From contig NZ_RYYV01000007.1 in the NCBI RefSeq assembly GCF_003977665.1, positions 1-64,000 on the forward strand: a stretch of DNA of 64,000 nucleotides, written 5' to 3'. The notes beneath the pieces were generated by a model. It had not been told where the DNA came from. It searched no databases and saw nothing but the letters and a program-made list of their open reading frames with translations. Below are positions 28,377 through 54,711 of the stretch, in pieces. Source of the DNA: Dyella choica (GTDB lineage Bacteria > Pseudomonadota > Gammaproteobacteria > Xanthomonadales > Rhodanobacteraceae). The number at the start of each line of letters is the position of its first letter. Within the stretch, counting starts at the first letter, position 1. A program made the position numbers and the translations under genes.

Positions 28377-29792
28377 TTACAGCCCGTAGCAGCCGCTGAC
28401 CTGGCTGGAGGTGAACGAATTGGAGCCGAGGCCAATGAACTGCAGGCCGCCAACGGCCGTCACATGGCTGGTAATGGCCGAGTTGTACGGAGAGGTCACC
28501 AGACCTTGCGTGGTGGCCTGGTCCGAGCCGTTGCCCGTGCTGTTACCGAGGAAGTACGAGACGGCCACGATCGGATAGCTGCCCACCGGCACGATGCTGC
28601 CCAGGGTGGAGCTGGGAGCGGCGTACTTGTTCGGCCTCACGATAGCGATGCACTGCGTGGTGGGCGCAGGCGAGATGGCCGTGAGCGCTGGCGTACCGTT
28701 CGTGTTGTTGGTGCTGCTGATCACCTGGTTGAAGGCGATGGAGGAACCGGTGATGGACGAAACGCTGAAGTTGCTGACCGGGCTCTTACCGTTTACAGAG
28801 CCGAACTGCAGGCCGGGGTTGGTGGCCTGGGCGTTGGCCAGTTCCACATAGCCGATGCTGCTGGCCGTAGAACCAATGGCAGCGGCTACGCCCGCGTTAC
28901 CGCTGGAGCCGGTCCAGCCGGAGGGAGCCGTGGTGAAGAAGTTGGAGGTTACTGCCGGGGAAGCGCCGACGAAAGCCTGGTTGGCTTCAAACGGACCACC
29001 GCTCAAACCGGCGGCAGCGCAGACAGCCGACAAGTGGTTACTGAAGCTGAAGCTCGTGCCGCTGCCATCCTTGCGGTACTGCACGTTGATCGCCGAGGAA
29101 GGAATCGTGACGCCGGCGGTGAGGGTGAACGCGTTGGCTAGCCGGGAATCACTCCAGTTGGTGATCTGGCCGGAGAAGATCTGGCAAACCTGCAGGTCGC
29201 TGAAGTTCACTTCCGAAGAAGTCACCTGGGCGCCGGTGCTGTCCGTCAGGTTGAAGGCGATCGCCACCGCACCCACCACCACCGGGAACTGCACGGGGAG
29301 GCTACCGCCATGATTGCCGGTGTAGTTGCTGAAATCCGCTTGGCTCAGCGGTGCATCCGCAGCGGCGAAGTTCGGCTGGGTCAGGTCGGTGCGGCTGACA
29401 ACCGGCGCGCCAAAGCCATGCAGCACAGGGCTGGTGCCGCTGGTCGGGCAGACATCCTGCACGCTGTTGTTGGTAATCCCGGCAAGTATGTTCTTACCCG
29501 AGCCGCTGCCGGTCAGGCAGTAGGAGGAAGTGGTGCCGTTGGTCGAATCATACACACCGAGCAGCGAACCCGAAGCGATGGCGCCGACATAGGAGGGCGG
29601 GTTGGTTACCGAAGCGTCGGTCAGTTGCGGGGTCGACGGGTTAGCGGCAGCGCTGCCGACATAGAGGAGCGACGGCAGCGTCGCACCACCACCCACTTGC
29701 GTGCCGGCATGCGACACGCCAGCCATCACCAATGCCAGAGCACCAGCGATCAGCTTGGTGCGGGTGTTTAACCGATTCAGTCCATTACTCAT
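28377..29792 (-). CDS. PstS-like phosphate-binding periplasmic protein
   Basis: A 471-residue exported protein of the PstS-type periplasmic-binding superfamily. After the signal peptide (ending near GVSHA) comes VGGGATLPSLLYVG, the usual GAGATFP-like N-terminus. Ligand-loop pieces follow: VVVGAVAIAFNLTD, QIFSGQITNWSD, YRKDGSGTSFSFSNHLSAV and IGYVELANAQATNPGL. It is longer than canonical PstS (about 320) and no pstCAB follows, so it more likely senses or captures phosphate on its own. It lies at the distal end of the two-partner-secretion locus. The ATG at 29792 follows ggggaacacc; the ATG at 29804 is an alternative. Confidence 0.8.
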   Translation of the reverse strand: MSNGLNRLNTRTKLIAGALALVMAGVSHAGTQVGGGATLPSLLYVGSAAANPSTPQLTDASVTNPPSYVGAIASGSLLGVYDSTNGTTSSYCLTGSGSGKNILAGITNNSVQDVCPTSGTSPVLHGFGAPVVSRTDLTQPNFAAADAPLSQADFSNYTGNHGGSLPVQFPVVVGAVAIAFNLTDSTGAQVTSSEVNFSDLQVCQIFSGQITNWSDSRLANAFTLTAGVTIPSSAINVQYRKDGSGTSFSFSNHLSAVCAAAGLSGGPFEANQAFVGASPAVTSNFFTTAPSGWTGSSGNAGVAAAIGSTASSIGYVELANAQATNPGLQFGSVNGKSPVSNFSVSSITGSSIAFNQVISSTNNTNGTPALTAISPAPTTQCIAIVRPNKYAAPSSTLGSIVPVGSYPIVAVSYFLGNSTGNGSDQATTQGLVTSPYNSAITSHVTAVGGLQFIGLGSNSFTSSQVSGCYGL

Positions 29793-29804
29793 GGTGTTCC
29801 CCAT

Positions 29805-30195
29805 AGCGCTTAGACCCCCGGAATTGGAGGCCATGGCTTTTTACGCTTGCGCAATGACGGGGCCATTAAGCAATGGTGTCGATGAATATGCCAACAAAAT
29901 TACAATATGGACGTATGGCATTAATATTTAATGTCATATTTTTCAAGCCGAAATCGGCTGTGAAGCAACGCACATTCCATGCAATCCAAGATTTTTTCAT
30001 CACCATTTTTCACGTTTTATGGTCATGTGGATTTCTATACTCACTCGGGGATTATGTACTCGCCACCATCGGCATGCACGTCGCTGGCAAATGCCATGAA
30101 TAAGCCGGCATCGTTCCTTGGAGCGCCAAAAGCTAAGGGGCAAAAGCGCCGCGGTCAGCTACGTTTTTGTCCCCTGGCATGAAATCGAATGATAT
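29805..30195. other. AT-rich intergenic region upstream of the PstS-like gene
   Basis: About 390 bases without a supportable gene. The part from 29870 to 30110 is markedly richer in A and T than the rest of the window. It contains the imperfect palindrome and promoter-like boxes at 29915-29946 and a small hairpin agccga-aa-tcggct at 29947-29960. Confidence 0.5.
29915..29946 (-). promoter_or_regulatory. Putative promoter and operator of the PstS-like gene
   Basis: Read on the minus strand, TTGAAA (29946-29941) and TAATGC (29923-29918) are 17 bases apart. An imperfect palindrome atggcattaa-tat-ttaatgtcat (29915-29937) overlaps the -10 box, suggesting repressor control. The predicted leader is about 120 bases. 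Confidence 0.4.
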
Positions 30196-30603
30196 TCACC
30201 GGCACGTACAAGGCGATAACTCATAAGGCAGACCGTATTCGTGCAACAAGGAATACACTTCCTTGTCCAGGTCCGACATGCGTGCAAGTGCAGCGATTTC
30301 TTCCGAAGACAGTTCCATCAATGCGCAGCGGATCGCGCTGCGATGCCCTTCCATGCACCAGGCGTTCAGAATCTTCATCAGCTCGGCAAGCATGACGCCT
30401 TTCACTTTGTCCGTGGCATCACCGATACGCTTGAGCTGCTTTTCCAGCGAATAGGTAAGCCGCTGGCTGAAAGCGCGCTCCGCCACTTCCAGCAATGCTT
30501 GCAATTGCGCGCGCGTGCAGGCCCTCAACAAGGATTCGGCCATGCCGTATTGACGCAAATTGGAAAGCTGGATCAGTGTTTCGACTAGCGCACCCTGATT
30601 CAC
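30196..30603 (-). CDS. Small helical protein of unknown function at the TPS locus
   Basis: A 135-residue, soluble, largely helical protein. I do not recognise a family. It has no signal peptide and ends with a cysteine pair (LSPCTCR). Visible features are a leucine-rich N-terminus (ALVETLIQLSNLRQYGMAES) and a helical C-terminal half (LMELSSEEIAALARMSDLDK). The GTG at 30603 is chosen because gagg lies ten bases upstream and because the exoprotein terminator at 30641-30669 lies just before it; an ATG farther up would translate that terminator. It sits between the giant TpsA gene and the PstS-like gene and is co-oriented with both. Confidence 0.6.
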   Translation of the reverse strand: MNQGALVETLIQLSNLRQYGMAESLLRACTRAQLQALLEVAERAFSQRLTYSLEKQLKRIGDATDKVKGVMLAELMKILNAWCMEGHRSAIRCALMELSSEEIAALARMSDLDKEVYSLLHEYGLPYELSPCTCR

Positions 30604-30640
30604 TGTGATTCGCCTCAATCCCTTGTCATGGATTCCGTTG

Positions 30641-30669
30641 AAAAAAAACCCGCCCCGTCCCTGGGACGG
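30641..30669 (-). terminator. Terminator of the giant exoprotein gene
   Basis: On the minus strand the stem CCGTCC/GGACGG is followed by GGCGGG and eight T. It lies about 105 bases past the stop codon at 30775. A second hairpin (gccggcg/cgccggc, 30712-30732) stands between. Confidence 0.7.
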
Positions 30670-30774
30670 ATTCCGCAAGGAGGATGTCCGATTCATGTTG
30701 TGGGCCTTGAGGCCGGCGCTGGACCCGCCGGCTTTGCTGTTTGTCCCAGCTCCGTGCTGGTTATCGGTATGTCG

Positions 30775-33700
30775 TCATTCGCTCAGTTGCCTGCGTTCGG
30801 CGTCAGTCAATGATTTTTTGCGCGCATCGCTGAGCGGCCCGGCGCCCAGCACTTGCACAGGGCTGTTCGGATCGTAACCACTGCCGCCACCCTGAATACT
30901 GGTGCTGCCGTCGCCGAATCCGAGCACCTGGACCGAGATGATCGACGGTTGTTTGCCGAGCGCATCGTTCTGCTGTTGCTTGGCCATATCCTGCGCCACC
31001 TTGCTGACCGCGCCCGCTGCAGCACCCGCCGCGGTGAGTGCGCCGACGTTCACCGTTTGCGCCACCGGCACGCCGATCTTCTGGCCCTGCACCTGGATGT
31101 TGTCGGCGTTCAAGACTTGCGCTGCGGCCACCACTAGGTTGCCGGAGACGCGAATGCCGGCGTCGCCCGCATCCACTGTGCCGCGCGGCGCAATCAGGTA
31201 AACGTTGCCTCTTGGCGCACCAGGTATCGTCTGCAAGGTGGCGATCCCGGCACCAGTGACCTCGCCCTTGGCATCGAGCAAGCAGAAGGCGTTCAGATCG
31301 CACAAATAGCTGGGCGGAGGGATCGCCGCCACGGTTTTCGCGCCCTGGCCCGCGTTGATGTCGCCGTTGGAACTGAAGATCACCATATTGCCGCCCTGCT
31401 CGGTGAAGATGCGGCTTTGCGCCAGCAGCAGGCTGCGGTCGGTGAAGATATCCACGTCACCCTGTTCCAGGGTGAGTACGCCTTGGCTGTTGGGACCGGC
31501 GACGACCTGACCGAGGTTGTTGGTGATCACGGGCGGCGCTTCCACGCTGCCGATCAGGGCCTGGCCGCCCGGACCCAGGATGCTGACATTGCCACCCTGC
31601 TGGGTCTGGATGGTGGAACTGCGGATATCCAGGTCGCCCGTATCGATGGTTCGGGCCTGGCCATTGATGCCGCCGGCACCGCTGCCGTTGTTGGTGTACC
31701 CCAGCGATGCAGGGAACAGGCTTTCGATCGCGGCGTAGCCACGTGCGTATTGGTTGTAGTACGGGCTGGATGGATTGTTGTAATCCGCACCCACCTGCCC
31801 TAGCAGCTTGAACAACTCCTGCTGCGCAAACAGTTGCTGCTTGTAGGCGGGCAATTGCTGGAAGGCGGCTTGCGCCTGCTGCGGTGTCAGCACCACGTTG
31901 AGCTGATCCTGCGCGAAGCCGGAATCGACCACCTGGCCATCCGCCTGCCGCTCCATGAAAGTGAGCAGATCCGGCAGCAGGCTGCCGAACCCGTCCACGC
32001 CATGGGGGCTGCTGAGATATCGGGCAAGGAAGCCGCTGGTGTTGATGCCCGGCCCTATACCGAACAGCACGCTGACGCTTGCGCCATCGTGCGGCAGATA
32101 GGGATTGAGCGTGTTGCCGATGGTTTCGATACCGGTCTGTTGATCGGCGGTGATAGCACTTGCGTTGAGGAGATCAGCCTGGCTGGTGAGCGGCCCAATG
32201 TTGCGGCCAGCCTCCACATCCAGCGTGCCAGCCCCGCCCAGCTCGATTACGGGTATGGGCTGGTAATACAAGTGGGAATCCAACACTACGGGATTGAACT
32301 GCGTATCGTAGATATCGTGGCCCGCGACGATGCGGGTGACATCCGACGCGTGCGTTTGCTGGCCGATAAAGGAGAGATTGACGATATCCCGCCCCGCCTG
32401 GATCAGCGCCGGCTTGTCCGGCTGGATCAGCATGGCATTCGCATAAATGCCGCCTGACTGCAGTGCCGTGCCATCGCTGATGCTGCCATTGAGCGCATAA
32501 ATGCGCACCGGAGTAACGTCGGAGTCATGCAGTCCGACCTGGTGTAACAATGGTTCGACATCTCCAAATGCGTTATTGGGAGAAGACGCACCGTCCAGGT
32601 AATGAAGCTGAGCTAGATTTGAGTAATCGACACTATTGGAACCTTGCGGCAGCAAGGGCGAGGGCAAAAGGGAGGGGTTCGCATCGATCAGGCCAAAGCC
32701 TTTTCCGGCAAGGCCAAGATCGTTGTTCTGCTGAGCGAATTGAACGGAATCAGCGGCAAGCAGGTTCAGATTGCCTGTAGCGGAGGGATACAGCCCGCCC
32801 GAAGTAAGGATATTGATCGTGCCGTTCAAGGCGCTGAAATCCAGCGTCGAAGGCAATACTCCAAGGTCGTAGCTGCTGCCAACGTCACCCACACCAAGCA
32901 CCTGGGTTTCCCCCGACAGGCTGCCCAGCGTCACATCGCCCGAGGCGGTCTTGGCATTGACCGCGGAGCGGACGCTGTAGCTTTGCGCGTCCGCCACGCC
33001 AAGCCAGCCAGGGAAGGCATAGGACGGGTCAAGAATGTCCGCGATATCCACGCCCTCGTGGGCTTGCACACTCCATTGCGCATCCTGCAAAGCCAGCAAG
33101 GTAGAGACTGGCGTGGTTTGAGGGCCGTTGCTGCCGCCAGGTAGCACGTAGGTGAAATCGGAACCGATCTGGCCGCCGGCCGATAAGCTGCCTGTACCCT
33201 TGGCGACGAAATAGCTGCCGCTGAGAATGTCGCCGCCCGCGCGCACCACAAGATTGCCGCTGCCCACGGTGGTGATGGCGGTGACTGCGGCATTGGCATA
33301 CCAGGTGGTGGGCAAGGAGACCGAGAGATCGCTGATGTTGCCGCCCGCCGTGACGGTGACATTACCGCCCGCGCTCATCACGCCTTGGTCGAAATTCGCA
33401 AAATTGATCGAGCTGCGAGTGGTGAACCCGACGCCTGAGCTGGGATTGGCGTTGACGACGTTGCCGGTTTCCAGCCACGGCCACCAGAACTGGCTGATCA
33501 ATGCGCCCGGCGTGCCGGTGAGGCTGCCGGTGCTGTCGTAAACCTGTTCGATGCTGTTGATGTTGCCGCCGGCGCTGAGCAGGAGATTGCCTGCGTTGAC
33601 GGGATTGACCGGATCGGTGACCAGCAAATCGGGGGTGGGACCCGCGATAGGCTGAGTGGGTATGACCACCTTCACCCCGGTGCCCGCCGTAGTGCCCGCG

Positions 33701-36700
33701 GCCGGCTCGCCCGCGGTATAGACCGTGGTGGGCGCGGTGGAGTCCTGCCAGTCGATGTCGCCTGCCGCCACGATCTCGATGGAACCGGTACCGGTGCGCA
33801 CCACGGTGGGGAAGACCAGCGTTTTGCCGTCGCCGCTGCTGGCGGTGTACTGCACCGCGAAATGCCCGTTGAGATTGACGTTGCCCGCGCTGGTGTCCGC
33901 TACAGCGGCAAGCGGGTTGGCACCGGCGAAACCGGCACCGGCCACGAGCTGGTAGCTGCTGCTCGATCCGCCCAGCAAGGTGGCCGAAGCCAGCGACGCC
34001 GGATTGCCCAGGCTTGGCATATTGGAGGGCGAGTTGTTCGCAGTCTGGGGTATGGTCGGTACTACACCTACGGGCGGGGCGGGCGCAAAGAAGAACTGCG
34101 AACCGCTGCCTTGTCCGGTAAGAATCGCATTGGCATTGCCCAGATTGTTGGCGACGTAGTTGTAGTAGTCGTTGAATCCCGTGGCAGCGGCACTTCCCGT
34201 GGCAGGAGTGCCGATATACGTGGCGTAATCCGCCGAATACTGCTGGTAATTGCCGGCCGCCTCCGACTGCAGGGGCGCCAACAAGGGCGATGGCGTCTGG
34301 ATCTGTGAAAGCGCAAGGTTGAAGTTGACGTCGGCCGTATTGGGGTTGAACGTGGAGGCGTCGTGCAAATAGTTGAAATAGGCGCTTACATAAGCGGCAT
34401 AGGTTGAGGAATCGCCGACCTGTGGCGCGGACAGGTTCAAGTTGTAGGGAAGAAAACCGGAGGCATTGCCTGCATCGAAGCACGAAGACCAGCTTGCACA
34501 GGGCGACGAGCCTGAGGATGTCGGGCCGGCCACCACGGTATTGATGTACAACGCGTAATCTTGGTAATACGCATGGGGTTGATTCTGCTGCGGCACAACT
34601 ATCGGCTGATAGAAAGCGAAACTTCCGATGTTCGTGGTATTTCCATTACCACCCGCCAAGGGTGATTGCGCATTGCCGTTCAGGTCCCAGAAATAGGCCG
34701 CGCCTCCGTTCCACAGATTGAACGAAGAGGGGCCTCCATTGTTGACTATCAGGTTGCCGCTTTGCAGAAACGCAATCGTGTTCTGGTACGCGGCCAGATC
34801 CTGACCATACATCGGATCCGTGGTGGCTCCTCCTGATGGCTGGATAACGGGCGGCACAAGCGTTGCCCCCGTGTTCTGCTGATAGAACCCATCGGTAAGG
34901 CTGGCCTGCACATTCACATTGTGCAGGGCAAGCACGCTCAGCACAGGCGCGGTGCCCGAAGCGGAGACCGTGGGATCGGCGCCATAGCGATACGCCAACT
35001 GGATCGTGCCATCGGTCGCCGTGACGCCGGCGCCCAGGTTCCAGTTGCTAAGCACCGAAATATCCCCGCCATTGACGCCGGCATCTGGATTGATCAGCTC
35101 GATGCCCGGACGCATCTGCAGGTGGGCGATGCCTGCGTAGCGATTACCAAAGCTGTAGCCGGGCTGTTCCACATAGCCCATCAAGGTCCCTGCGGTGCCA
35201 ACGTTGCCGCCGGCATAGCCGTAGAAATCCTGATGCGCTGCATTGACCGTCGTGGGTATGAAGTAGTCGTTGCCGAGATAGCTTTGCAACATCGCGGCCG
35301 TGGCGGGCGCAGCCAGTGTATTGCCTGCCTGGTCGTACCAGGTGCCCGGCATCAGTTGCGGTGTGCCGCCCGCGCCCGCGGTGTACCAGCCGGCGGGGTC
35401 GATCAGGCCATCGAAATGCTGTGACAGGTTGGTGATGTGGTCATCCGTGCTCCACACCGCATAGGGCACGAGCGTGACGCTTCTCGCACCGGTGATCGCG
35501 GCAGGATTGGCAAACGTAATCGGCACATCACCATTGGCCAGCAGAGGCGCGCGCAGGCTCACCGTGCCGCCCGCATCGGCGCTACCGCCGGAAACATTGA
35601 TCACGGCATTCGGCCCGAACACGATGCGGCCGGCGCTGCCGGGCTGCACGTTCTCGTAGCCGTAGCCGGTATTGAGCGAACCATCCGGCGTGCCGGTGGT
35701 GCCGATCTCAACGATGCCACCGAATTGCTCCGGCACGCTGCTGGTGGCCAGCAGGCTGCCGTTGACCGTGACGCCGTTGCGTCCGTAAAGCTGGATGGCG
35801 CCGGCAGCGGTGCCGGAGATGTTGACCGTGCCTTCGATATCCACCACGCCTGCGTTGGTGTTGACCGCGCCATTGCCTCCATTGGCGGTGAGGTACACAT
35901 CCTGCGCCATCAGGCTTTGCCCGGCGGAGAGCGACAGGTTGCCGGCACCGCTGGTGATGGAGATGCCGCCGGTGGCGCCTGCGCTGCGGGTCAACTGTGC
36001 CAACTGATCCAGATCCAGCGCGCCGCCGCTGCTTACACTGAAGTAGCCGCCCTGGTAACCGCTGGCAGCAGCGCCCTCAAAACTGCCGTTCAAGCTGGCC
36101 AGGTTGTTTGCGTTGATGGTGAGGCTGCCCGCCGTACCACCCAGCGGCGCACCAGCGAAGTTCACCACCGCGCCGCTGTCCACGCTCACCGAACCTTGTT
36201 TCGAGGTCAGCACGAGATTGCCACCGGGCGCATAGCTGGTGACGTCGTAGAAGGTTTTATTGACACCGGCGACATCGGCATTAGCGCCGCTGGCCAGGGT
36301 GAGATCACCACCGGTGGCGGTGAGCCGGAGCTGCCCGGCCAGCGCATCCACTTGGGTGCCCACACTGAGTGTGCTGCCGCTAAGTGCCAGCGAGCCGCCA
36401 AGATTGCTATCGCTCAGCGCAGTGCCGTTGGCGTGGTTGAGGGCGAAGCTGCCGGTGGTGGTAAGCGTGGTGTTCGCGCCACTGGTAGCCAGCAGGATCG
36501 GCGTGTTGAAGCTGACATTGGCCGCGCCGAAATCCATACCGCCGTTGCCGTGGCCGGTAATGCCCTGGTTTGCGTTGGCGGTGACGCTGGCGAAGCCCTG
36601 GATGACGCTGCTGCCCGCGGTGAAATCCAGTTCGTTCGCGTTGAGTATCCACTGGCCCGTGCCAGCCGAGGCCGTGGCAGTGCTGGTGCCGACAGCATTG

Positions 36701-43407: not shown

Positions 43408-43464
43408 GAAACTCTTCCCCTGGGCGTCTCTGTGGCACTTCGCTATGCAAAGCTGTCGCCTAAG

Positions 43465-43574: not shown

Positions 43575-43946
43575 TCAATGCGTACCGATTGGCACGCCCA
43601 GTATCGGCGGCGCAGCCAGCGGCGGTGGGCGCTGCGGCGTTACGGATTTACCGAGATGGCTGCCCATTTGATGGCTGAACGCGGAGTAGTTGAATTGCCC
43701 GACCTGCTGATTGCCGGGCATTTGCGCAACGGCATCGAGCTGCACTTGCGGTTGAGACGCCGGGTGGGTGGACGAGGCCAAGCGCTGGTTGAGGCAGGCA
43801 TAGGACAAGGCCGGCCGGTTGTTGACGCTGACGTCCACACACGAAGAAGACGCCGAAGCTTGCGCGGGTGCAACCGTCTGCGCCGTCGCAGACACGGCTG
43901 CGAGACACATCATGCTTAATCCTAGGACGGGTTGCACCACGCGCAT
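43575..43946 (-). CDS. Small exported protein of the TPS operon
   Basis: A 123-residue protein with a signal peptide ending near VSATA (residue 22). The mature part has one cysteine pair (SSCVDV and SYACLNQ), a Gln/Pro-rich middle and a proline-rich tail (PQRPPPLAAPPILGVP). I cannot assign a family. It follows the Skp-like gene by 15 bases and precedes the exoprotein gene by 167 bases, so it is a probable periplasmic accessory of exoprotein secretion. Confidence 0.7.
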   Translation of the reverse strand: MRVVQPVLGLSMMCLAAVSATAQTVAPAQASASSSCVDVSVNNRPALSYACLNQRLASSTHPASQPQVQLDAVAQMPGNQQVGQFNYSAFSHQMGSHLGKSVTPQRPPPLAAPPILGVPIGTH

Positions 43947-44582: not shown

Positions 44583-44659
44583 GCGGGGTCCTTGAAGGTT
44601 GACGAAAACGGTTGCGAGCCTCCCAACGTACGCCAGTTGGCCTTCAATTGCAGCAACTC

Positions 44660-44734
44660 CGTAGGCTGGGTTGTGAAACCCAGCATTGCCATGTGGCGAC
44701 TCGCGCGATGCTGGGATTGGCATCCCAGCCTACG
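44660..44734. repeat. GTAGGCTGGG inverted repeat (copy 6)
   Basis: Arms cgtaggctgggttgtga and tggcatcccagcctacg with altered internal bases. It separates two genes of the TPS operon, and its TAG (44732-44730 on the minus strand) is the stop codon of the coiled-coil gene. Confidence 0.88.
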
Positions 44735-45353
44735 GTTTCCTGGCGGGAGTGGCCCGTGGGTCGTAACGCTGCTCGTACAGCTTGTCCCCATACGCCTGCG
44801 CCGCGTTTTCCAGCTTCACTCGCTCTGAGGCGGCGAACGGTTCGCGGCTCGCGATGACTTTGCCAAGCGTCATATGGCTGTACTCGTCCAGGATTTCATT
44901 GCCGATCTTGTACAGCTGCTGGTTCCTGGCCGCGCAGGTAGTGACTTGCTGCTGCGCTACGTTCAATTGCCCGGCAAGTTCGGTGCCTTGCTGTTCCTGC
45001 GCATGCTCCCTGGCGTTGGCATCCGCCGCCGTTTTTTGCAGGTCCTGCAACTGCGCTTCCGCCTGCTGGCGGGCGACACGCTCGGACGCCAGCACGGTGG
45101 CGTCTTGCGTAGAGGTGGAGTGGCTCTTGCCCAGCTCAGCCTTCGCGGCATCGGCCTCCTTGCGCGCCGCATCGCGTGCCTGCTCAAGCCTGGCCTTCTC
45201 CGCCTGCCATTGCGCTTGCTGGCCTTGCAGATCCTGCAATTGATTGCGGGCATCGGCGAGCTGGGTGCGCAATTGCTGTTCCAGCGTTTGCGCGTGCAAA
45301 CCACCGGCAAACATGGCGCTTAGCAGGATGGCGAGAGTTGCTGCATGTTTCAT
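44730..45353 (-). CDS. Periplasmic coiled-coil protein of the TPS operon
   Basis: A 207-residue exported protein. The signal peptide ends near LHAQ (residue 21). Residues ~24-145 form one long coiled coil (LRTQLADARNQLQDLQGQQA and ERVARQQAEAQLQDLQKTAA). A cysteine (TTCAARNQQLY) and a compact C-terminal segment follow (IGNEILDEYSHMTLGKVIAS). It lies between porin and Skp-like genes with a 10-base gap to the former. It may span or brace the periplasm for secretion. Function unassigned. Confidence 0.75.
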   Translation of the reverse strand: MKHAATLAILLSAMFAGGLHAQTLEQQLRTQLADARNQLQDLQGQQAQWQAEKARLEQARDAARKEADAAKAELGKSHSTSTQDATVLASERVARQQAEAQLQDLQKTAADANAREHAQEQQGTELAGQLNVAQQQVTTCAARNQQLYKIGNEILDEYSHMTLGKVIASREPFAASERVKLENAAQAYGDKLYEQRYDPRATPARKP

Positions 45354-47115: not shown

Positions 47116-47169
47116 CACGTTCTCCAAATACGGTGGCATTGCTTATCTGGCGATACAAAAGTCGGTCGA

Positions 47170-47844
47170 TCAGCCGGGCCGGTAACCACGCATGGCCACG
47201 CGCACCGGCATGCTCAGGCTGGGCGGCGGCGGCGTATCGATGCGCACGCCGCGCAGCACCTCGAGCAGGGCGCCGTCGGTCTTCTCGACGCCACTGGGCT
47301 TGATCAGTTGCACACGCGTCACGCCGCCATCGGGCGATAGCCACAGGTTCACGCGCACCTCGAACACCAGACGGCGCGTGCGGTCGTCGCGCTGGACGGC
47401 TTGCTGCAGGGCATAACTGAGGTATTGCTCGTAGGAGGAGCCACCCACGCCGCTGCCGCCGCCGCTGCCCACCATGCCGCCACCTTCTCCGGCGCCGATG
47501 TTGAAGGCGTCGTTACCGGCCTGGGCCGGGCCGTTGATGGTGATCTGCTTGGCGACGTCGGGTGCCTTGGGCGCCTGCACCGGCTTCAAGGGTTCAGCCG
47601 GCTTGGGCAGCTCCTGATTGGTTTCCTCCACCTTCTTCGGTTCCGGCGGCTTTTCCTTGGGCGGTGGCGGCGGTGGCGGCAATGGTGTGATGGTGGCGAT
47701 GCGCGGCGCCGAGCGGCGCACGCCCACTTCGTGGCCCGCGAGCATCCACACCAGCCATGCCGCGGCAAGCAGCAGCACGATGGCGATGATGCGTGCGCGC
47801 CATCGCTGCCATCCTGTCCGCTGTGAGTAACCGGGCTCGAACAT
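47170..47844 (-). CDS. TonB-like energy transducer
   Basis: A 224-residue inner-membrane protein with one N-terminal helix (ARIIAIVLLLAAAWLVWML), a proline-rich periplasmic spacer (LPPPPPPPKEKPPEPKK), a Gly-rich linker and a TonB C-terminal domain (YEQYLSYALQQAVQRDDRTR, VRVNLWLSPDGGVTRVQLIK, VRIDTPPPPSLSMPV). It forms a unit with exbD and the exbB fusion, each spaced by 10 bases, so the TPS locus carries its own proton-driven energising complex. Its client may be the STN protein at 52340 or a receptor elsewhere. Confidence 0.87.
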   Translation of the reverse strand: MFEPGYSQRTGWQRWRARIIAIVLLLAAAWLVWMLAGHEVGVRRSAPRIATITPLPPPPPPPKEKPPEPKKVEETNQELPKPAEPLKPVQAPKAPDVAKQITINGPAQAGNDAFNIGAGEGGGMVGSGGGSGVGGSSYEQYLSYALQQAVQRDDRTRRLVFEVRVNLWLSPDGGVTRVQLIKPSGVEKTDGALLEVLRGVRIDTPPPPSLSMPVRVAMRGYRPG

Positions 47845-47854: not shown

Positions 47855-48259
47855 TCAGGTGGATTGCCTGCCGGTCACCAGACCGACCTGGGAAAGTTCG
47901 AGACGGCGCAGCAGGTCGAGCACATCGACCACTTTCTGGTACGGCACGTTGGAATCGCCCTTGACGATCACCGGGAATTCCGGCGTGAGCGCTTTCTGTT
48001 CGCGCAAACGCTGCTCCAGCTCGCCCATGCTCACCGGAAACGCATCCAGAAAGACTTGCCCGCTGTCCGAAACCGTGATCGCCTTGGTTTGCGGCCTGGC
48101 CAGGCTCACCGAGGCGCTGGCCTTGGGCAGGTTCACCTTGATCCCCTGCACGGCTGCGGTAGTCATGATGATGAAGATCACCAGCAGCACATACGCCAGG
48201 TCCAACATCGGCGTGATGTTGATGTCGTCGTAGGGCTTGTCTTCGTCTTGGACTTGCAT
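47855..48259 (-). CDS. exbD: ExbD/TolR biopolymer transport protein
   Basis: A 134-residue inner-membrane protein with a single N-terminal helix and a periplasmic domain. The family motif INITPMLDLAYVLLVIFIIM holds the proton-relay aspartate (D20 in PMLDLAYV). The periplasmic part includes VIVKGDSNVPYQKVVDVLDL. It forms the motor complex with the ExbB fusion and TonB on either side. Confidence 0.93.
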   Translation of the reverse strand: MQVQDEDKPYDDINITPMLDLAYVLLVIFIIMTTAAVQGIKVNLPKASASVSLARPQTKAITVSDSGQVFLDAFPVSMGELEQRLREQKALTPEFPVIVKGDSNVPYQKVVDVLDLLRRLELSQVGLVTGRQST

Positions 48260-48269
48260 GACCGCCTCC

Positions 48270-50084
48270 TCAGCCTTCCACTGTGGAGAGGTCGACGGCG
48301 CGATGCAGCTCGGCCAGGCGGGTCACGAATTCGTCGACGAACACCTGCATGTTCGCGGTGACCGCCTTGTTGCGTGTCAACAAGTAGTTGTAGCCGAACA
48401 GGGCGGGAATCGCGACGGCCAATCCAGCCACCGTCGCGAGCAGGGCCGCGGAGATACCCGGCGCAATCGCATTGATGTTCACGTCGCCCGCGGCGGCGAT
48501 CGCTGCGAAAGTGATCATCACGCCGACTACCGTGCCGAGCAGGCCAAGGAACGGACCGCCCGAAATCGCAATGGTCAGCATCACCATCGAGCGCGACAGC
48601 GCCTGGTTCTCGCGCACCAGAGTGGAGTCCATCACCGCGCGGATCGCCTCGATGGATTCGGAGGCGATCACCAGTCGGCCATCTTCATCGCGGCGGCGCC
48701 ATACTTCTTTCGCTCCAATTTCGTAGAGGCGATACAACGACGAGCCAGCCAGCTCGCCCTTCACCGCCGGCGAGACATGGTTGCCGGCAAGGCCCAGCAG
48801 GTTGCCGCCAAGTTCGCGGTAGCGGTGCAGAAAACGTTCATTCGCGTTCGTCACCCGCGACACGTAGTTGCCGCGCTGCCACATCACCAGCCAGGAGATG
48901 ATCGCCATGATCAACAACACCGCGATCACCACCCAAGCATCCACCGTCACCGACCTGACGATGATGCCGAAGTAGCCGAAGCCGAAGCCCGACTTCTTCT
49001 CGTCCTCGCCGTAGCCGATCAGCTTGGATTGAGCACCTTGGGTAAGCACATCGGCCGCAATCATCGCTGCCGGCCGTGCGATGCGGGACAGGCGCAACTC
49101 GTCCATCTGCCCTACGAAGGCGGCAAATGGCACCGGTGCATTGGCCGTACCCGCAACGTCGCCACCCACCGCTGCACTGCCGCTCAGGGCGGGAAGGGCG
49201 GCGGCGAGGTTGGCGGATGGCTGCCCATTCACGTACAACGTGATCTGGCCATTGCCGGCGGCGATCGCCAGATGCGTCCACTGGCCCGCTTTCAACGCTG
49301 CCGAGCCGTTGGCGCGTTGCGGGGCGTTGCCGCCATCCACTTCGACGAAGGGGGCGCCGTTGTCGATACCTATCAGCAGCGCCTTGTTGTCCTGGCGATG
49401 AGCGTAGATCAGCGTCGCCGTCGTGGGCAGGACATCCAGCTTGATCCAGGTGCTGAGAGTGAAGCTACCGCCATCCTTGATTTCGAGCGAGGAACTGGTC
49501 GGCAGCGTCACCACCGTCGTGCCGTCGAAGCGCGCCGCGTTGCCTGCGATGCCTCCATCCGCTGTGCGCAACGCACCGCTCGCCGCATTGTTGCCGTAAG
49601 CGGTGGCATCCTTCGGCGGCTGCCCCGTCGACTCGTCGAAGTGATACACCAAGGTGTAGTCCGCATCGAACGTGGCGGCGCCGTTGCTGAACACTGGAGC
49701 TTTGCTGTCGCCGTAATACATCCAGATGGTCTGCTGGCCGTTGGCCGGCAGATCCGTGGCGTCGAGCCAGATCTGCGCCACGCCCATCACCGGATCGAAG
49801 TTTTCGATCTGGTAGTTCAGCGGCGTCTTGCCGTCTGCACCGACGAAGCGCAGATCGGAGCCGTTCTTGGCCACGCCGTCGAACTGGAAGTTGCCCGGAT
49901 GCAGGCGGATCAGCAGCGGCATGCGCCCGACCGGCTGCGTGATGTTGCCGCCGCTGGGGCTGGTGTCCAGCGTGATGGGTTTACGGTACGACCAATCGTC
50001 GTTCCACCAGGAAGCCTCGCCGGCCAGGCCCGGTTTCGGGGCCAGCAGCAGGCACAGCGTGCACAGAAGGATGAAATACCGCAT
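48270..50084 (-). CDS. DUF2341-LamG-ExbB fusion (MotA/TolQ/ExbB proton channel)
   Basis: A 604-residue membrane protein combining exported and channel domains. A signal peptide (ending near GLAGE) is followed by a DUF2341 domain (SWWNDDWSYRKPITLDTSPS), then a concanavalin-like LamG domain (LEIKDGGSFTLSTWIKLDVL, GQWTHLAIAAGNGQITLYVN). A transmembrane helix near residue 385 leads into an ExbB/TolQ/MotA channel (LTIAISGGPFLGLLGTVVGV, GISAALLATVAGLAVAIPAL). Ordinary ExbB proteins have no such ectodomain. The LamG part could bind glycans or the exoprotein, coupling energy to TPS. Fusions of this type are known at FHA-like loci, but their function is untested as far as I know. Confidence 0.88.
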   Translation of the reverse strand: MRYFILLCTLCLLLAPKPGLAGEASWWNDDWSYRKPITLDTSPSGGNITQPVGRMPLLIRLHPGNFQFDGVAKNGSDLRFVGADGKTPLNYQIENFDPVMGVAQIWLDATDLPANGQQTIWMYYGDSKAPVFSNGAATFDADYTLVYHFDESTGQPPKDATAYGNNAASGALRTADGGIAGNAARFDGTTVVTLPTSSSLEIKDGGSFTLSTWIKLDVLPTTATLIYAHRQDNKALLIGIDNGAPFVEVDGGNAPQRANGSAALKAGQWTHLAIAAGNGQITLYVNGQPSANLAAALPALSGSAAVGGDVAGTANAPVPFAAFVGQMDELRLSRIARPAAMIAADVLTQGAQSKLIGYGEDEKKSGFGFGYFGIIVRSVTVDAWVVIAVLLIMAIISWLVMWQRGNYVSRVTNANERFLHRYRELGGNLLGLAGNHVSPAVKGELAGSSLYRLYEIGAKEVWRRRDEDGRLVIASESIEAIRAVMDSTLVRENQALSRSMVMLTIAISGGPFLGLLGTVVGVMITFAAIAAAGDVNINAIAPGISAALLATVAGLAVAIPALFGYNYLLTRNKAVTANMQVFVDEFVTRLAELHRAVDLSTVEG

Positions 50085-50110: not shown

Positions 50111-51730
50111 TTACAGTCCCGCCTTCACGCTGAAAAGCAGATGCCCGTCGTGCGCCCTGGTCTGCACGCCGCCACGCAGCGGATAGGCGTATTCGAGATC
50201 GCCGTTCACGGCATGAAAAAGAGTGAATGAAGTGCCTACGCCGGTACTGAGCAGGGTGAATCGCCCGCGCTGATCAGGCAGCGGATCGATCAGCATCAGG
50301 CGTGCGCTATCAACGAAGACATGGAAGCGCCAGTCGTCCGCGAACGATCCCAGCCATGCATGGATCGATGGCGTGCGCAGCTCCACCGAAGCGATCGCGC
50401 CGTTGTCAGCGGTTTCTTCCGCCGACAGGTAGCCGCGCACGCTGCTCATGCCGCCGGCCGCGAACTGCTCGCTGGAAATCAGCGGCTGATTGCTGGCCTG
50501 CGCACTGGCGCGCGTGGCAAGGGCGAAGTCGCCGGCAAAGCTGCGCGCGTAATTGAGGTCCAGGTGCAGGTCGGCGAAATTGTCGCGCGCGTTGTAGCGC
50601 TGGTTGTCGAACGCCTGGTTGCTGCTGCCAACGCCGCGCCAACCGAAGTTACCAGTGAGCGTAAAGCCGAGGGTGGATTTCTCTTCGGTGCGCTGGCCGG
50701 TGTAGGACGCCGAAAGGGGGTAATACGTGAGGGGCGCCTGCAGCGTCTGCCCACCCAGCCGAATGTTCTGCTCGAAGTGCTTGCGGCTGATGCCGAACGA
50801 GACTAGCTGCGTGTAATCGCCGCCCAACAGGGGCAACTGCTTGGTTGCCTGAAGGCTTACCGCGTTGCCCTTGCCCAGCACGGTGGTGCCGCCCAGCGTG
50901 TTGGCATTGCTGTTGGACTTGTACGCCGAACCGAGCAGGCTCCATTCCGTGTTCAGGGGTGCCAGGTACGACAGCGCATAAACTTCGGTGGCGTGCCGGT
51001 CCTGCGGTGCAACGATATAGGTGGCCGAAACGGTATGCCCCAACTGCCACAGGTTATCGTAGCGGACGGAGGCGATGGTACGCAGATCCGGCGTATAGGC
51101 ACTGTGGTCGTTGTTGACCTCCACACTGCCGTGCAGCGGATAGGTATCGTCCACCTTGAGCGTGACATCCATGGTTTGCGGCATGCTGCCGGGGCTCAAT
51201 AACGGCACGATTTGCCTTCCCGGCTGTCGGTTGAGATCGGTCAGTTCCTTCTGCACCTGATTGAAATTGGGTACGGAGCCTTGCGCCAGCGAGGGCACGG
51301 CATCGCGGATCTGCTGCGGCGAGTGATACTTGGCGCCTTCCACACGCAGACGGCCGATGCTGTTTTCCATCACCTGCAGCAGGATCACGCCGTGCTTCAC
51401 CTGCTGCGGCGGAATCTCCACCACCACCGACTGGTAGCCCTTGGACTGATACAGCTTCTGCAGCGCATCGCGCGCAGCATGCACGTCGTTCATGCCGCGT
51501 CCGGGCCCCAGATAGGGCTCCATCGAGTTTTCGACATCGGCGGCTTGCAGCAGGGTGTTGCCGCGTACCAGATACTCATTGATCTGGAAGCTGGCCGGCG
51601 CGGACAATGCGGACGGCGCCGTTTGGTCTTGCGTTTGCGCCGCAAGCGGAAACGCTAGTACCGCACTGATCAGCGCCGCCAGCGGACGCGCAAGACGCAC
51701 CGATGGGCTCGCTCCATGCCGCATGCTCAT
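50111..51730 (-). CDS. TpsB outer-membrane transporter (ShlB/FhaC/HecB family)
   Basis: A 539-residue outer-membrane protein that would translocate the TpsA exoprotein. The signal peptide ends near PLAAQ; two POTRA domains follow (FQINEYLVRGNTLLQAADVE, SIGRLRVEGAKYHSPQQI) with the linker NFNQVQKELTDLNRQPGRQI. The C-terminal 16-stranded barrel has the conserved GGMSSVRGY loop (VRGY motif) that lines the pore. It opens the operon tpsB-exbB-exbD-tonB-porin, 26 bases ahead of the exbB fusion. The nearest tpsA is the giant gene at 30775. Confidence 0.93.
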   Translation of the reverse strand: MSMRHGASPSVRLARPLAALISAVLAFPLAAQTQDQTAPSALSAPASFQINEYLVRGNTLLQAADVENSMEPYLGPGRGMNDVHAARDALQKLYQSKGYQSVVVEIPPQQVKHGVILLQVMENSIGRLRVEGAKYHSPQQIRDAVPSLAQGSVPNFNQVQKELTDLNRQPGRQIVPLLSPGSMPQTMDVTLKVDDTYPLHGSVEVNNDHSAYTPDLRTIASVRYDNLWQLGHTVSATYIVAPQDRHATEVYALSYLAPLNTEWSLLGSAYKSNSNANTLGGTTVLGKGNAVSLQATKQLPLLGGDYTQLVSFGISRKHFEQNIRLGGQTLQAPLTYYPLSASYTGQRTEEKSTLGFTLTGNFGWRGVGSSNQAFDNQRYNARDNFADLHLDLNYARSFAGDFALATRASAQASNQPLISSEQFAAGGMSSVRGYLSAEETADNGAIASVELRTPSIHAWLGSFADDWRFHVFVDSARLMLIDPLPDQRGRFTLLSTGVGTSFTLFHAVNGDLEYAYPLRGGVQTRAHDGHLLFSVKAGL

Positions 51731-52046
51731 TCGCCGCCTCGTGCTTGCGCCGGCCGATCGGCGCCCATCCGTCGATGGCGCGAAGCTACTGCACCGCCGA
51801 TAACCGAATCACGACAGCCGCGTGTCGACTCTACAACACGGCCCCCTGCTCCCCAACCACATCCCTGTGGCGCTTGCAATCCCTGCAACCGATGTCTGTT
51901 GTTCCTGCTCACGCAATGCGCATCCCGATCGCGACGGCGTTTGGCCGTCCATTTGCAAGAGTCGAAAAGCCCCGCACGCGAACGCCGAGCGCTGCGCGTG
52001 ACCCAAAGACGGCGTCCTTAGCTTGTCCACGACATCCCTGCTCGGA

Positions 52047-52096
52047 TAGACCGGCTGCTCGGTTCCGGACTGAACCGTGTCACGAAAAATTCATGG
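52047..52096 (-). promoter_or_regulatory. Putative promoter element of the tpsB operon (paired with 43465-43514)
   Basis: On the minus strand, block 1 (52096-52068) has CCATGAATTTTTCG and then TGACACGGTTCAGTC; block 2, CGGTCTA, is 14 bases farther (52053-52047). It matches the tpsA element at 26 of 29 bases in block 1 and at all seven of block 2. It lies 317 bases before the tpsB start. The shared form suggests one sigma/activator pair controls both transcripts. Confidence 0.6.
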
Positions 52097-52148: not shown

Positions 52149-52192
52149 CGACATCGCGCGATTCACTGTCACATTGCGGGCATAGCCTTTAA

Positions 52193-52333
52193 CAGGCTGT
52201 TGAGAAACAGTCTGATGGAGCAGGCCACGGATGGTCTGCCGCGAATCAAGCACGGCAAGTGCTTGATTCGCGGCAGCAAGTTCGGACATGCGCCGAACTT
52301 GCTGCGTTGAGAAAGTGCAGGAAGCACTTTCTC
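52193..52333 (+). repeat. Array of consecutive perfect hairpins
   Basis: Hairpins follow each other with almost no gap. One is caggctgtt/aacagtctg (52193-52213). A 16-bp perfect stem joins tgccgcgaatcaagca (52237-52252) to its complement at 52260-52275. An 11-bp stem agcaagttcgg/ccgaacttgct spans 52275-52303, and a 10-bp stem gagaaagtgc/gcactttctc spans 52309-52333. They end at the proposed start of the STN protein and may form a structured 5' leader or a MITE-like element. Confidence 0.8.
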
Positions 52334-52339
52334 GACATC

Positions 52340-53158
52340 GTGTTGGAACTTGTCCAAGGAGGCCATACAACGTGTGTCGCTTTCGTATCAAAGGGTCTTG
52401 AGTACTTCGTCGTTCGACGGTTTGCCGATGTGGTTTTGTGTTTGACGCTGTGTTTGGCATCTCCTGCGGAAGCGGTTTCCACCCTGTATCAAGCGAATAT
52501 CCAGACGAATTCGCTTGGGGAGCCACGGACCGGCGCCCCCCAGGCCGACGACATCATCGCGTTCGACATGCCACCGCAGTCGCTGCTGACGGCGTTGCGA
52601 ACCTATAGCGAACTCACTGGGCAGGCAGTGCTCGTGGATAACGCGTTGGCGGCGGGACGGCACTCTCCCGGCATTCACGGGAGCTACGGCAAGACCGAGG
52701 CATTACAAAAGCTGCTTGCGGGGACCGGGCTGGTCGCGAGTTTCTCCAGCGACCAGGCGTTCACGTTGAAGCTTTCGGAGGTGGACGTAGCCGTTGACGG
52801 AACGGCGCGCAAAGGAGCTCAGAGCCTTGGAATGGAGGAAAACCAAGCCGTGATCGAACACTACGCCGGAAAAATCCAACGACCGATCGAGGTGGCGCTA
52901 TGCCAATCCGAAGAGACGCGACCTGGTACGTATCGGCTCGCCTTGCAGATATGGATCGCGGCATCGGGCCGGATCGAGAAAGCCAGGCTGCTAAGCCCCG
53001 TCGGCAGCCAGCGTGATGACGAAGTGCGGAAAGCTTTGAACGCTCTTGAGCTAGAACCGCCGCCGTCCGGTATGCCACAGCCGATCACGCTGCTGTTGCT
53101 GCCTGGTCGAGCTGACCGGGCTTGGGCCTGTGCCCCAGCCCTGCCCTACGTGCATTGA
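52340..53158 (+). CDS. VreA-like signalling protein: STN domain plus TonB-C domain, no barrel
   Basis: A ~272-residue exported protein. After a signal-like segment (FADVVLCLTLCLASPAEA) comes an STN domain (about residues 70-142: IIAFDMPPQSLLTALRTYSE, ALQKLLAGTGLVASFSSDQA), the part of FecA-type receptors that touches the FecR anti-sigma factor. In place of a beta-barrel, the C-terminus is a TonB-like domain (YRLALQIWIAASGRIEKARL, VRKALNALELEPPP). This unusual layout matches P. aeruginosa VreA. It heads a tight operon: the sigma gene starts 10 bases after it. The start is uncertain; GTG at 52340 is given, GTG at 52430 is an alternative, and neither has a strong ribosome site. Confidence 0.78.
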   Translation: MLELVQGGHTTCVAFVSKGLEYFVVRRFADVVLCLTLCLASPAEAVSTLYQANIQTNSLGEPRTGAPQADDIIAFDMPPQSLLTALRTYSELTGQAVLVDNALAAGRHSPGIHGSYGKTEALQKLLAGTGLVASFSSDQAFTLKLSEVDVAVDGTARKGAQSLGMEENQAVIEHYAGKIQRPIEVALCQSEETRPGTYRLALQIWIAASGRIEKARLLSPVGSQRDDEVRKALNALELEPPPSGMPQPITLLLLPGRADRAWACAPALPYVH

Positions 53159-53168
53159 GATGTAAGCG

Positions 53169-53714
53169 ATGGAAACCACGCCATTGCCGTTGCTGCGCCT
53201 GTTCATGGAACGCCGTCAGGAGTTGCGGCGGCGCCTGAAACATCGCCTGGGTTCGGACGAGCTGGCCAACGACGCCTTGCAGGAAACCTACCTGCGCATC
53301 GAGCGTATGGGCGACAGCTCGTGCATATCGAGCAATCCGGCCGGTTACCTGTTCCGCATGGCGATCAACGCCGCATCGGACCAGCGTCATGCCGAGGCGC
53401 GCTACCTCACCGGCAGCGAGGTCGAAGATCTGCTGAACGTCGGGACGGATACGCTGGACCCGGCCCGGGTGGTGCATGCCGAGCAGGAGGTGCAAGCGCT
53501 GGGCCAGGCCTTGGCCGAACTGAGCGGACGGCAGCGCGCCATCCTGATCGCGGCCCGGGTCGAGGACGTGGCCCAGGAGGAGATCGCCCGCCGGTTCGGG
53601 ATTTCCGTACGCATGGTGGGCAAGGAACTGAAGAAGGCGCTTGAACATTGCGGCAGGCGTCTCGATCGCAAGGTCGTGCAGCGGTTCGGTCCGGGCGCCG
53701 GAAAAGAGTCTTAG
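53169..53714 (+). CDS. FecI-type ECF sigma factor 1 (VreI-like position)
   Basis: A 181-residue sigma-70 family factor. Region 2 spans about residues 15-80 (RLGSDELANDALQETYLRIE, PAGYLFRMAINAASDQR) and region 4 about 110-165 (ELSGRQRAILIAARVEDVAQ, IARRFGISVRMVGKELKKAL). It lies between the STN protein and a FecR anti-sigma gene (4-base gap), so it should be released when the STN protein senses its signal. The minus-strand TPS promoter pair is its most likely target. Confidence 0.92.
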   Translation: METTPLPLLRLFMERRQELRRRLKHRLGSDELANDALQETYLRIERMGDSSCISSNPAGYLFRMAINAASDQRHAEARYLTGSEVEDLLNVGTDTLDPARVVHAEQEVQALGQALAELSGRQRAILIAARVEDVAQEEIARRFGISVRMVGKELKKALEHCGRRLDRKVVQRFGPGAGKES

Positions 53715-53718
53715 GGGT

Positions 53719-54711
53719 ATGCCGAGAATCGACCCAATGGCCCATCATCGCGCCGTGCTGCAGAAGGAAGCGCAACGCTGGCTGCTGCGCCTGACCTCGG
53801 GCACGGCTACCACGCAGGATGCGCGCGCCTTCGAACACTGGTGCGGGCAAAGCGCTGCGCACGTGCAGGCATTCGCCGAAACCCGCCGTTTATGGGAGAA
53901 CCTGGGGCCGGCTGCGCAGGCGTGGCTGGCCGGCGAGCGAGTACGCGCTGCGGCTGCATCCCAGCGTGCCGCCGACGTACCGCGCATCAGTCGCCGGGCT
54001 TTTCTCGGCGCGGCCGTCGCCGCATCCGCTGCGCTGGTTGTGATCCATCCGCCACTGCGGCTTTGGCCGTCACTGTCGGAGATGGCAGCAGACTACCGCA
54101 CGGCCATCGGCGAACAGCGCGAGGTGGACCTCGGCCAGGGCATCGTGGTGCAAATGAACACACAGACCACGATGAGCCTGCACAAGTCGCAAGGCCAGCT
54201 CGCCGGTATCGAGCTACTGGGCGGCGAGATCCAGGTGAAGGCCACCACCGCAGCCTCCGGCCCGGTAAACGTGCTTGCCGGGGGCGGTCGCATCGACGTC
54301 GCGGCGTTGGGCAAGTGCAACGTGCGCTGCTACGACGGCGATGTGCAGGTCACTGGCCTGGATGGGGCCACCACTTTGCGCTATCGGGGACAGACCGCAG
54401 TGCTCCGGACAGCGCAAAGCGCTGAATACGGCAACGGCAGGGTGGGCCAGGTCAGGCCCGCGGATCTTGAAGTCACCATGGCGTGGCGGCGGCGCGTACT
54501 GATTTTTGATGGCCAGCCGCTGGCCGAGGTGGTGCGCGAGATCAATCGCTATCGTCCGGGCAGGATCATTCTGGCCAACGACGTCCTGGCTGCACGCAAG
54601 GTACAGGCGCGTTTTTCGCTCAATCAGCTCACCGACGTGGCGGCACTGATCCAGGATGCCTATGGGGCAAAGGTCACTGCGCTGCCGGGCGGGATCGTCA
54701 TACTCAGTTGA
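53719..54711 (+). CDS. FecR-type anti-sigma factor 1 (VreR-like position)
   Basis: A 330-residue inner-membrane protein. The cytoplasmic N-terminus carries the sigma-binding DUF4880/FecR N-domain (EAQRWLLRLTSGTATTQDAR, then AFAETRRLWENLG). A single helix (AFLGAAVAASAALVVIHPP) precedes the periplasmic FecR domain (VDLGQGIVVQMNTQTTMSLH, VNVLAGGGRIDVAALGK) and a C-terminal STN-like domain (FDGQPLAEVVREINRYRPG). The ATG at 53719 overlaps no ribosome site of the sigma gene but sits after aggggt. It would hold the sigma factor of 53169 inactive until the STN protein signals. Confidence 0.9.
   Translation: MPRIDPMAHHRAVLQKEAQRWLLRLTSGTATTQDARAFEHWCGQSAAHVQAFAETRRLWENLGPAAQAWLAGERVRAAAASQRAADVPRISRRAFLGAAVAASAALVVIHPPLRLWPSLSEMAADYRTAIGEQREVDLGQGIVVQMNTQTTMSLHKSQGQLAGIELLGGEIQVKATTAASGPVNVLAGGGRIDVAALGKCNVRCYDGDVQVTGLDGATTLRYRGQTAVLRTAQSAEYGNGRVGQVRPADLEVTMAWRRRVLIFDGQPLAEVVREINRYRPGRIILANDVLAARKVQARFSLNQLTDVAALIQDAYGAKVTALPGGIVILS

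Follow-up and report, generated by a model that had tools for sequence, protein, structure and literature searches.

The gene island at positions 28377 to 54711 of a 64,000-nucleotide stretch of Dyella choica DNA (contig NZ_RYYV01000007.1, forward strand; hereafter the window) raises the question of whether a giant exoprotein of the two-partner secretion (TPS) type, TpsA, works together with the ExbB-ExbD-TonB motor, the porin and the signalling genes encoded around it. A proton-driven motor of its own is unexpected, since export systems of the two-partner type are not thought to need one; the accessible text of two sources describes two-partner secretion as needing no external energy (PMC5422565, PMC9355242). 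A preliminary description of this DNA had proposed an island resembling the PUMA3 signalling and Pdt secretion systems of Pseudomonas aeruginosa. Gene-by-gene comparison indicates that the island is a PUMA3/Pdt-type locus, a true relative of the P. aeruginosa phosphate-starvation surface-protein locus, and surveys of other genomes point to the motor as a partner of the exoprotein.

The corresponding region of P. aeruginosa PA7 was located via a primer printed in PMC5606073, and 14 proteins of the window were compared by blastp with the open reading frames (ORFs) there. Counterparts in the vre-pdt region were found for 12 of the 14, because an OmpH-like protein and a 166-residue ORF (ORF166) had no match at an E value of 1e-3. 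The regulatory genes lie on the plus strand, opposite to the tps genes, and domain searches bore out the proposed unit of an STN/TonB-C protein, an ECF sigma factor and a FecR protein: a vreA-like gene (52372 to 53158, start predicted) encoding an STN and TonB_2 periplasmic signalling protein, a vreI-like sigma factor gene (53169 to 53714) and a vreR-like gene (53719 to 54711, start likewise predicted) for a FecR/DUF4880 anti-sigma factor. Identity to PA7 was 41% for VreA, 52% for VreI and 44% for VreR, the last over 326 aligned positions (E 1.5e-78) in a comparison within the PA7 locus only. The VreI match was reciprocal and stood far above the paralogues, with 178.9 bits from the window to PA7 (runner-up in PA7, 51.4) and 179 bits from PA7 to the D. 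choica genome (runner-up, 44.7). Kinship to the three Vre proteins had been set beforehand as a test of the proposal, and it held. The VreA-like protein has an STN domain (E 3.2e-7) and no barrel in the domain search; its TonB_2 match (E 0.0044, 17.6 bits) is under the cut-off of 22. An STN lobe with a TolA/TonB-like C-terminal lobe and no barrel is the hallmark of PUMA3 VreA according to the accessible part of PMC2729926.

The secretion genes run from right to left on the minus strand, and every part that the preliminary description had listed among them (TpsA, TpsB, motor, porin, periplasmic helpers and a PstS-like gene) was recovered in place as ORFs and domains. First come tpsB (50111 to 51730; POTRA_2 and ShlB barrel; 47% identity to PA7), an ExbB2-like exbB (48270 to 50084; 50%), exbD (47855 to 48259; 67%) and a TonB4-like tonB (47170 to 47844; 41%); the DUF2341 and LamG region at the N terminus of this ExbB (LamG-ExbB) was absent from the earlier account. 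A Porin_5 outer membrane channel (45364 to 47139; E 3e-157; 44%), a periplasmic coiled-coil protein (44730 to 45353; 38%), both also matched in PA7 and the latter in relatives, and the OmpH/Skp-like periplasmic protein (43962 to 44723) follow. Further left lie a small secreted-looking ORF of 123 aa (43575 to 43946; found by tblastn in relatives), 36% identical to an ORF beside vreA in PA7, and tpsA (30775 to 43407), which encodes an FHA-type exoprotein of 4210 aa with a TPS domain at about 42130 to 42987 and DUF3739 at 31063 to 31395, aligning with its PA7 counterpart in two stretches at 29% and 38%. Behind tpsA stand ORF166 (30196 to 30696), without a Pfam or NCBIfam match, and a gene for a PstS-like periplasmic binding protein (28377 to 29834; PBP_like_2, 485 aa), whose match to TIGR00975 (E 1.7e-26) is nevertheless under the family cut-off and whose PA7 counterpart (27%, E 2e-11) adjoins pdtA.

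The likeness to PUMA3 and Pdt of P. aeruginosa (PA0674-0676 and PA0690-0699; PMC2729926, PMC4971064, PMC7035377, accessible text) therefore spans an orthologous sigma factor, a matching receptor and anti-sigma factor, TpsA, TpsB, LamG-ExbB, ExbD, TonB, porin and coiled coil, a PstS-like gene beside tpsA, and composite promoters of the same design; as in Pdt, exbB2-exbD2-tonB4 and PA0696-type porin genes stand behind tpsB. In contrast to P. aeruginosa, the vre and tps units of the window adjoin, here divergently, a composite promoter precedes tpsB, the OmpH-like protein and ORF166 lack a PA7 match, and the start of vreA is a candidate for recoding. Neither Hxc type II secretion genes nor LapA were seen in the part of the window's ORFs that was scanned, and no PpiC protein occurred among the island proteins scanned, unlike the P. 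aeruginosa locus, where hxc lies near pdt (PMC2729926, accessible part). We did not take linked Hxc/LapA as defining, because the published description, as far as accessible, omits them for some PUMA3 clusters (PMC2729926). PUMA3 beside TPS, ExbBD and a PA0696 homologue is listed there for P. fluorescens, P. entomophila, B. vietnamiensis, R. palustris and Janthinobacterium, all outside Xanthomonadales unlike the window; since such clusters are known from several genera, the island is of a known kind. What the analysis adds is the specific partnership of motor and exoprotein, a tail motif in TpsA and a candidate frameshift.

Conservation among relatives was assessed in the D. choica genome and 60 relatives, 16 of which (16/61) encode a full-length LamG-ExbB (9 of 16 within the genus); the same search at E 1e-20 returned 49/61, a count swollen by ordinary TolQ/ExbB. 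Ten relative loci with a full-length LamG-ExbB were fetched and searched by tblastn for the 14 island proteins. The complete set was found in eight. In one locus (G013) the contig breaks off within tpsA, so that ORF166 and the PstS-like gene are missing, and another (G034) gave no match for the OmpH-like protein; downstream of tpsA, ORF166 and the PstS-like gene are each present in 9 of the 10 loci, the tenth being cut at the contig end. The order vreA-vreI-vreR on one strand is common to the window and all 10 relatives. The divergent arrangement in the preliminary description is true of the window but is not a fixed trait, for the regulatory genes are divergent in 4 of these 11 loci (the window, G014, G003 and G004) and co-directional in the other seven. 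As read from these sequences, the island arrangement is not due to chance. STN, ECF and FecR domains are common, and a second such unit lies at 55148 to 63252, so that a generic two-partner system might by accident have come to lie beside an unrelated cell-surface signalling unit; gene-by-gene orthology, conservation of the island in relatives and the shared promoters described below make such a gathering extraordinarily improbable.

The same island was also found on annotated plasmid records of Klebsiella quasipneumoniae and Methylosinus. The Klebsiella plasmid (IncFIB, typed conjugative) carries two tpsA genes and vreAIR, and on the Methylosinus plasmid a substrate-binding protein gene again adjoins tpsA. 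A Cupriavidus plasmid has only the part from tpsB to the porin, and a Burkholderia arboris replicon, whose record is unannotated, gave tblastn matches to most island parts. Type II secretion (gsp) genes adjoin the motor genes in Cupriavidus, and T2SSE and T2SSF proteins lie near the motor genes of one further locus (L070), where ten proteins were scanned.

Regulation by phosphate had been an inference in the preliminary description, and the promoters bear on it directly. Alignment upstream of tpsA revealed a block common to the window and its relatives: two 7-bp direct repeats, which are Pho-box-like on the opposite strand, are followed by GGTTCAGTC and, after a spacer, by CGGTCTA. A weight matrix was built from the tpsA promoters of nine relatives, with the window and PA7 left out; recovering the tpsA site in those nine is accordingly circular, which does not apply to their tpsB site. 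In the window, the matrix gave 77.1 for a predicted composite Pho box and ECF sigma promoter before tpsA (43459 to 43514, minus strand) and 43.5 for a second, directed toward tpsB and the motor genes (52041 to 52096, minus strand), against 1.5 for the next site in the 64 kb and a peak of 5.0 in six random 64-kb sequences. The same two sites rank top in all 10 relatives, with third sites at 7.0 or less. In the PA7 region the top scores were 18.0 and 10.5 (next, -5.0), one site lying immediately upstream of pdtA and the other some 200 bases ahead of a 201-aa ORF between pdtA and pdtB, at the position of phdA; the second PA7 site thus differs in placement from that before tpsB in the window. Published pho boxes and VreI promoters exist for both pdtA and phdA, whose starts were mapped by 5' rapid amplification of cDNA ends together with pho, -35 and -10 elements, those of pdtA being confirmed by mutagenesis as well (PMC4971064, accessible text). 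Counted by hand, and with GTCT taken as the -10 element, the repeats of the PA7 site before pdtA agree with the published box positions in the accessible text (PMC4971064). The best sites on the Klebsiella plasmid scored 22.9 and 11.7 (next, -3.9), before tpsB and one of the two tpsA genes.

The window thus appears to hold before tpsA what characterizes Pdt, namely, a Pho box with sigma-factor -35 and -10 elements. Since the matrix hits occur in both the window and PA7, phosphate control of tpsA and tpsB becomes a prediction supported by sequence, and the conserved composite promoters carry the PhoB/VreI signature into another bacterial order. The composite model alone was decisive: a simple Pho-box consensus scan of the window was uninformative (7 matches versus 4.5 expected), and upstream regions scored against a Pho-box consensus came out weak for vreA and tpsB. 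An additional element, TGTCGTGATTCGGTTA, occurs at about 51800 to 51817, 70 to 90 nt before the tpsB start, with small variation in 9 of 9 aligned genomes.

To which of its neighbours the motor belongs was addressed through co-occurrence in samples that overlap; per genome, scoring was limited to the top 3 or 4 candidates in the motor searches and to no more than 15 in the family searches. Among 369 genomes of the class, LamG-ExbB (at an E value of at most 1e-40) occurred in 22, DUF3739 (over its own cut-off) in 23 and both in 21, leaving one motor-only and two DUF3739-only genomes (Fisher p 6e-31, relatedness ignored). TPS domains of any kind were present in 122 of the 369, and the motor in only 1 of the 101 TPS genomes without DUF3739 (G163). 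In a phylum sample of 299 genomes, motor and DUF3739 were found in the identical nine genomes, three of them outside the window's class, and the two lay on separate contigs in three of the nine (G539, G674 and G689). The 61 close relatives gave 16 genomes with the motor versus 15 with DUF3739. Pooling the three overlapping samples yields 40 genomes with both and 4 discordant ones. In each discordant genome the contig ends near the hit, on the side expected to carry the partner from the usual gene order: tpsA is cut in G013, the motor of G163 lies 492 bases from the contig start, and DUF3739 is separated from the contig start by 46 bases in G160 and by 556 in G258. Of the 21 class-sample pairs, 20 are on one contig within 25 kb, 14 of them within 3 kb. 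DUF3739 TpsA proteins and the DUF2341-LamG-ExbB motor therefore co-occur almost one to one. Second LamG-ExbB copies in G195, G178 and G209 of the class sample and in G563 tell against strict pairing; two loci with second LamG-ExbB/ExbD copies (L080 and L088) have no TpsA, TpsB or porin match nearby and so weigh against strict exclusivity. Another use of the motor is possible at these two loci.

Twenty distant motor loci, of up to 20 kb each and from 18 genomes, bear on the choice between exoprotein and regulator. Since VreA has an STN lobe, and motor and vre genes adjoin in the window, the motor might be thought to serve VreA signalling, as TonB does for ordinary TonB-dependent transducers. 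However, the search detected neither VreI nor VreR in any of the 20 loci, although it readily picked up the Methylosinus orthologues, and the motor accompanies DUF3739 TpsA whether or not vreAIR is nearby. We therefore rejected the idea of a motor in the service of VreA, which is very unlikely on these counts, and conclude that the LamG-ExbB/ExbD/TonB motor so far appears to belong with the DUF3739 exoprotein rather than with the VreIR regulator. Porin_5 was present in 17 of the 20 loci and TpsA in 15. TpsA and motor could also travel as a block of genes without working together, as their occurrence on plasmids and the patchiness of the island (9/16 genus genomes) might suggest. Against this, the pairing holds over many families, also outside the class, despite varied gene order and distance, and the TpsA proteins of distant loci have a tail motif in common (see below); mere joint travel is thus a rather unlikely account. 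P. aeruginosa ExbB2-ExbD2-TonB4 is described as still uncharacterized in the accessible text of PMC7035377, and the function of DUF2341 on ion-channel subunits is called unknown in that of PMC12505986. The near one-to-one pairing, with the shared tail motif, gives this motor a specific, testable partner.

Taken together, these data make it highly probable that the island is an orthologue of PUMA3 (vreAIR) and Pdt, with PhoB and VreI acting at two composite promoters and with motor and porin in the same unit. In phosphate-starved cells, PhoB would act jointly with the VreI-type sigma factor at both promoters, one driving tpsA and the other tpsB, with the downstream exbB, exbD, tonB and porin genes probably in one operon with tpsB. 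The anti-sigma factor VreR would hold VreI until the periplasmic VreA, with its STN signalling lobe and TonB-like lobe, relays the signal. TpsB would export the 4210-residue TpsA to the cell surface, and the LamG-ExbB/ExbD/TonB motor and Porin_5 channel would form one working unit with TpsA rather than being generic neighbours.

Several results weigh against this explanation. In addition to the two proteins unmatched in PA7, the promoter region of vreA in the window holds only weak Pho-box matches (background probability, 0.04 to 0.07); blocks there are conserved in an alignment of four genomes. Scored in the same simple way, PA7 vreA has no strong Pho box either. The Burkholderia, Methylosinus and Cupriavidus loci yielded no matrix site; regulation in them may be different, or the model may be too narrowly drawn. 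Besides lacking VreI and VreR, the 20 distant loci showed no phosphate family among the best 25 of 86 neighbouring Pfam families; TPR proteins were commonest among the 78 of 124 unassigned ORFs run against Pfam, and rarer phosphate families may be hidden outside those 25. The phosphate link therefore does not look general to the whole module of TpsA and motor.

What the motor might do to TpsA is suggested by the C terminus of the exoprotein. Tails were aligned for 23 DUF3739 TpsA proteins, from the window, five relatives, PA7, Klebsiella, Burkholderia, Methylosinus and 13 distant loci; of the 29 loci given to the alignment, a C terminus was obtained from 22. In these proteins DUF3739 is followed by a variable linker and then by a conserved strand, exemplified by SIISVQVLGFG and FLTVEVIGFGD, with which several of the proteins end. 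The strand resembles what we take to be a TonB box (T-hydrophobic-x-V-x-small), and by this motif resemblance we call it TonB-box-like; in the window it reads ISVQVLGF (residues 4157 to 4164; 30916 to 30939, minus strand, by pattern match). The tail pattern was found near the C-terminal end of 21 of the 23 proteins and matched the whole window TpsA only once, but only the control counts are independent, because the pattern was derived from the same 23 sequences. It was absent from the 13 other island proteins and occurred in 2 of 346 mechanically chosen background ORFs. The source genome encodes five further TPS-domain proteins (one each on contigs C40, C6 and C34 and two on C29), none with DUF3739, which is confined to the island TpsA; four of them were complete and lacked the pattern, and the fifth (C40) gave no complete ORF of at least 1500 aa.

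With a TonB-box-like tail and a private TonB alongside, the simplest novel reading is that TonB may grip a TpsA tail remaining in the periplasm. We tentatively propose that DUF3739 exoproteins form a separate, energy-coupled class of TPS. Once TpsB has exported TpsA, the C-terminal tail would stay periplasmic and present its TonB-box-like strand, and the dedicated LamG-ExbB/ExbD/TonB proton motor would grip the tail, whether to fix the fibre in place, to move or free it, or to change its orientation; one branch of the class would have come under PhoB/VreI control, and in the window's genus VreA would be made by a +1 frameshift. A TonB-driven two-partner system would, if true, be a novel reading of such loci. 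Among the literature matches listed, closed-access work such as the original Pdt paper aside, neither a motor-coupled TPS class nor a treatment of DUF3739 or a TonB box in TpsA was found. The FHA/FhaB-FhaC system of Bordetella presumably provides another filamentous TpsA that is exported and whose C-terminal region is distinct. A private motor for it was not among the accessible literature matches listed, whereas the window has its own motor; DUF3739 and the tail motif mark the window TpsA as another subclass than FHA, FhaB itself not having been searched.

Alternatively, the motor may drive Porin_5 and not TpsA, with TpsA capturing a phosphorus-rich or other ligand that the porin imports, as HxuA and HxuC do for haem. 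The pairing of a TpsA with a TonB-dependent outer membrane partner has a precedent in HxuABC, the H. influenzae system for haemopexin (PMC5422565, accessible part), and the porin accompanies the motor in most distant loci. The porin N terminus, moreover, has an extended VRVPYVPE..V..IR segment (window 46780 to 46833) conserved in 27 sequences, and this rival therefore stands. However, HxuC is a TonB-dependent transporter, whereas the window has a Porin_5 channel, which showed no plug domain in the domain search and is not a TonB-dependent receptor, and an island-encoded motor. Three of the 20 distant loci, two of them second motor copies, have no porin close to the motor, and the neighbour families listed for the distant loci include no phosphate genes. 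We regard a porin-driving motor as somewhat unlikely. The N-terminal segment itself may be a TonB contact or a family trait.

The start of vreA differs from that in the preliminary description, which had placed it at 52340. No ribosome-binding site was detected ahead of the GTG at this position, which lies inside a hairpin-rich insertion (approximately 52192 to 52348, plus strand); the insertion separates the vreA promoter region from the ribosome-binding site, has an RNA fold z of -10.5, is present in one copy in the window and is missing in three close relatives (G014, G003 and G004). Instead, eight of the nine island-bearing genomes of the genus share a ribosome-binding site, a GTG or ATG, eight further codons and then TGA or TAA, and no such short ORF precedes vreA in the ninth (G007). 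In the window, this 9-codon ORF runs from GTG to TGA (52372 to 52401, plus strand) and ends TCT TGA, with vreA resuming in the +1 frame. Read by eye, the +1 product has a basic and then a hydrophobic stretch, like a signal peptide, in all eight genomes, which also share the signature of a frameshift: a conserved out-of-frame start, a fixed stop and an open +1 frame. It seems, then, that vreA is entered by a +1 frameshift from the 9-codon ORF. Alternatively, translation could do without a frameshift, with ACG as an unusual start codon or with ribosomes re-initiating behind the short ORF, since an in-frame GTG or TTG stands five bases ahead of that ORF in 3 of the 8 genomes (G001, G013 and G010) and later in-frame GTG or TTG codons are present in some. 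Five of the eight, however, lack any in-frame start with a ribosome-binding site, and both the nine-codon length with its stop and the character of the +1 product hold in all eight; we consider a start of this kind possible but short of probable. Frameshifting of VreA received no treatment in the best 15 of 322 literature matches, as far as their text was accessible.

The second signalling unit beside the island, at 55148 to 63252, looks ordinary and comprises an ECF sigma factor, a FecR protein, a pro-kumamolisin/PKD/P-domain protein and an STN TonB-dependent receptor.

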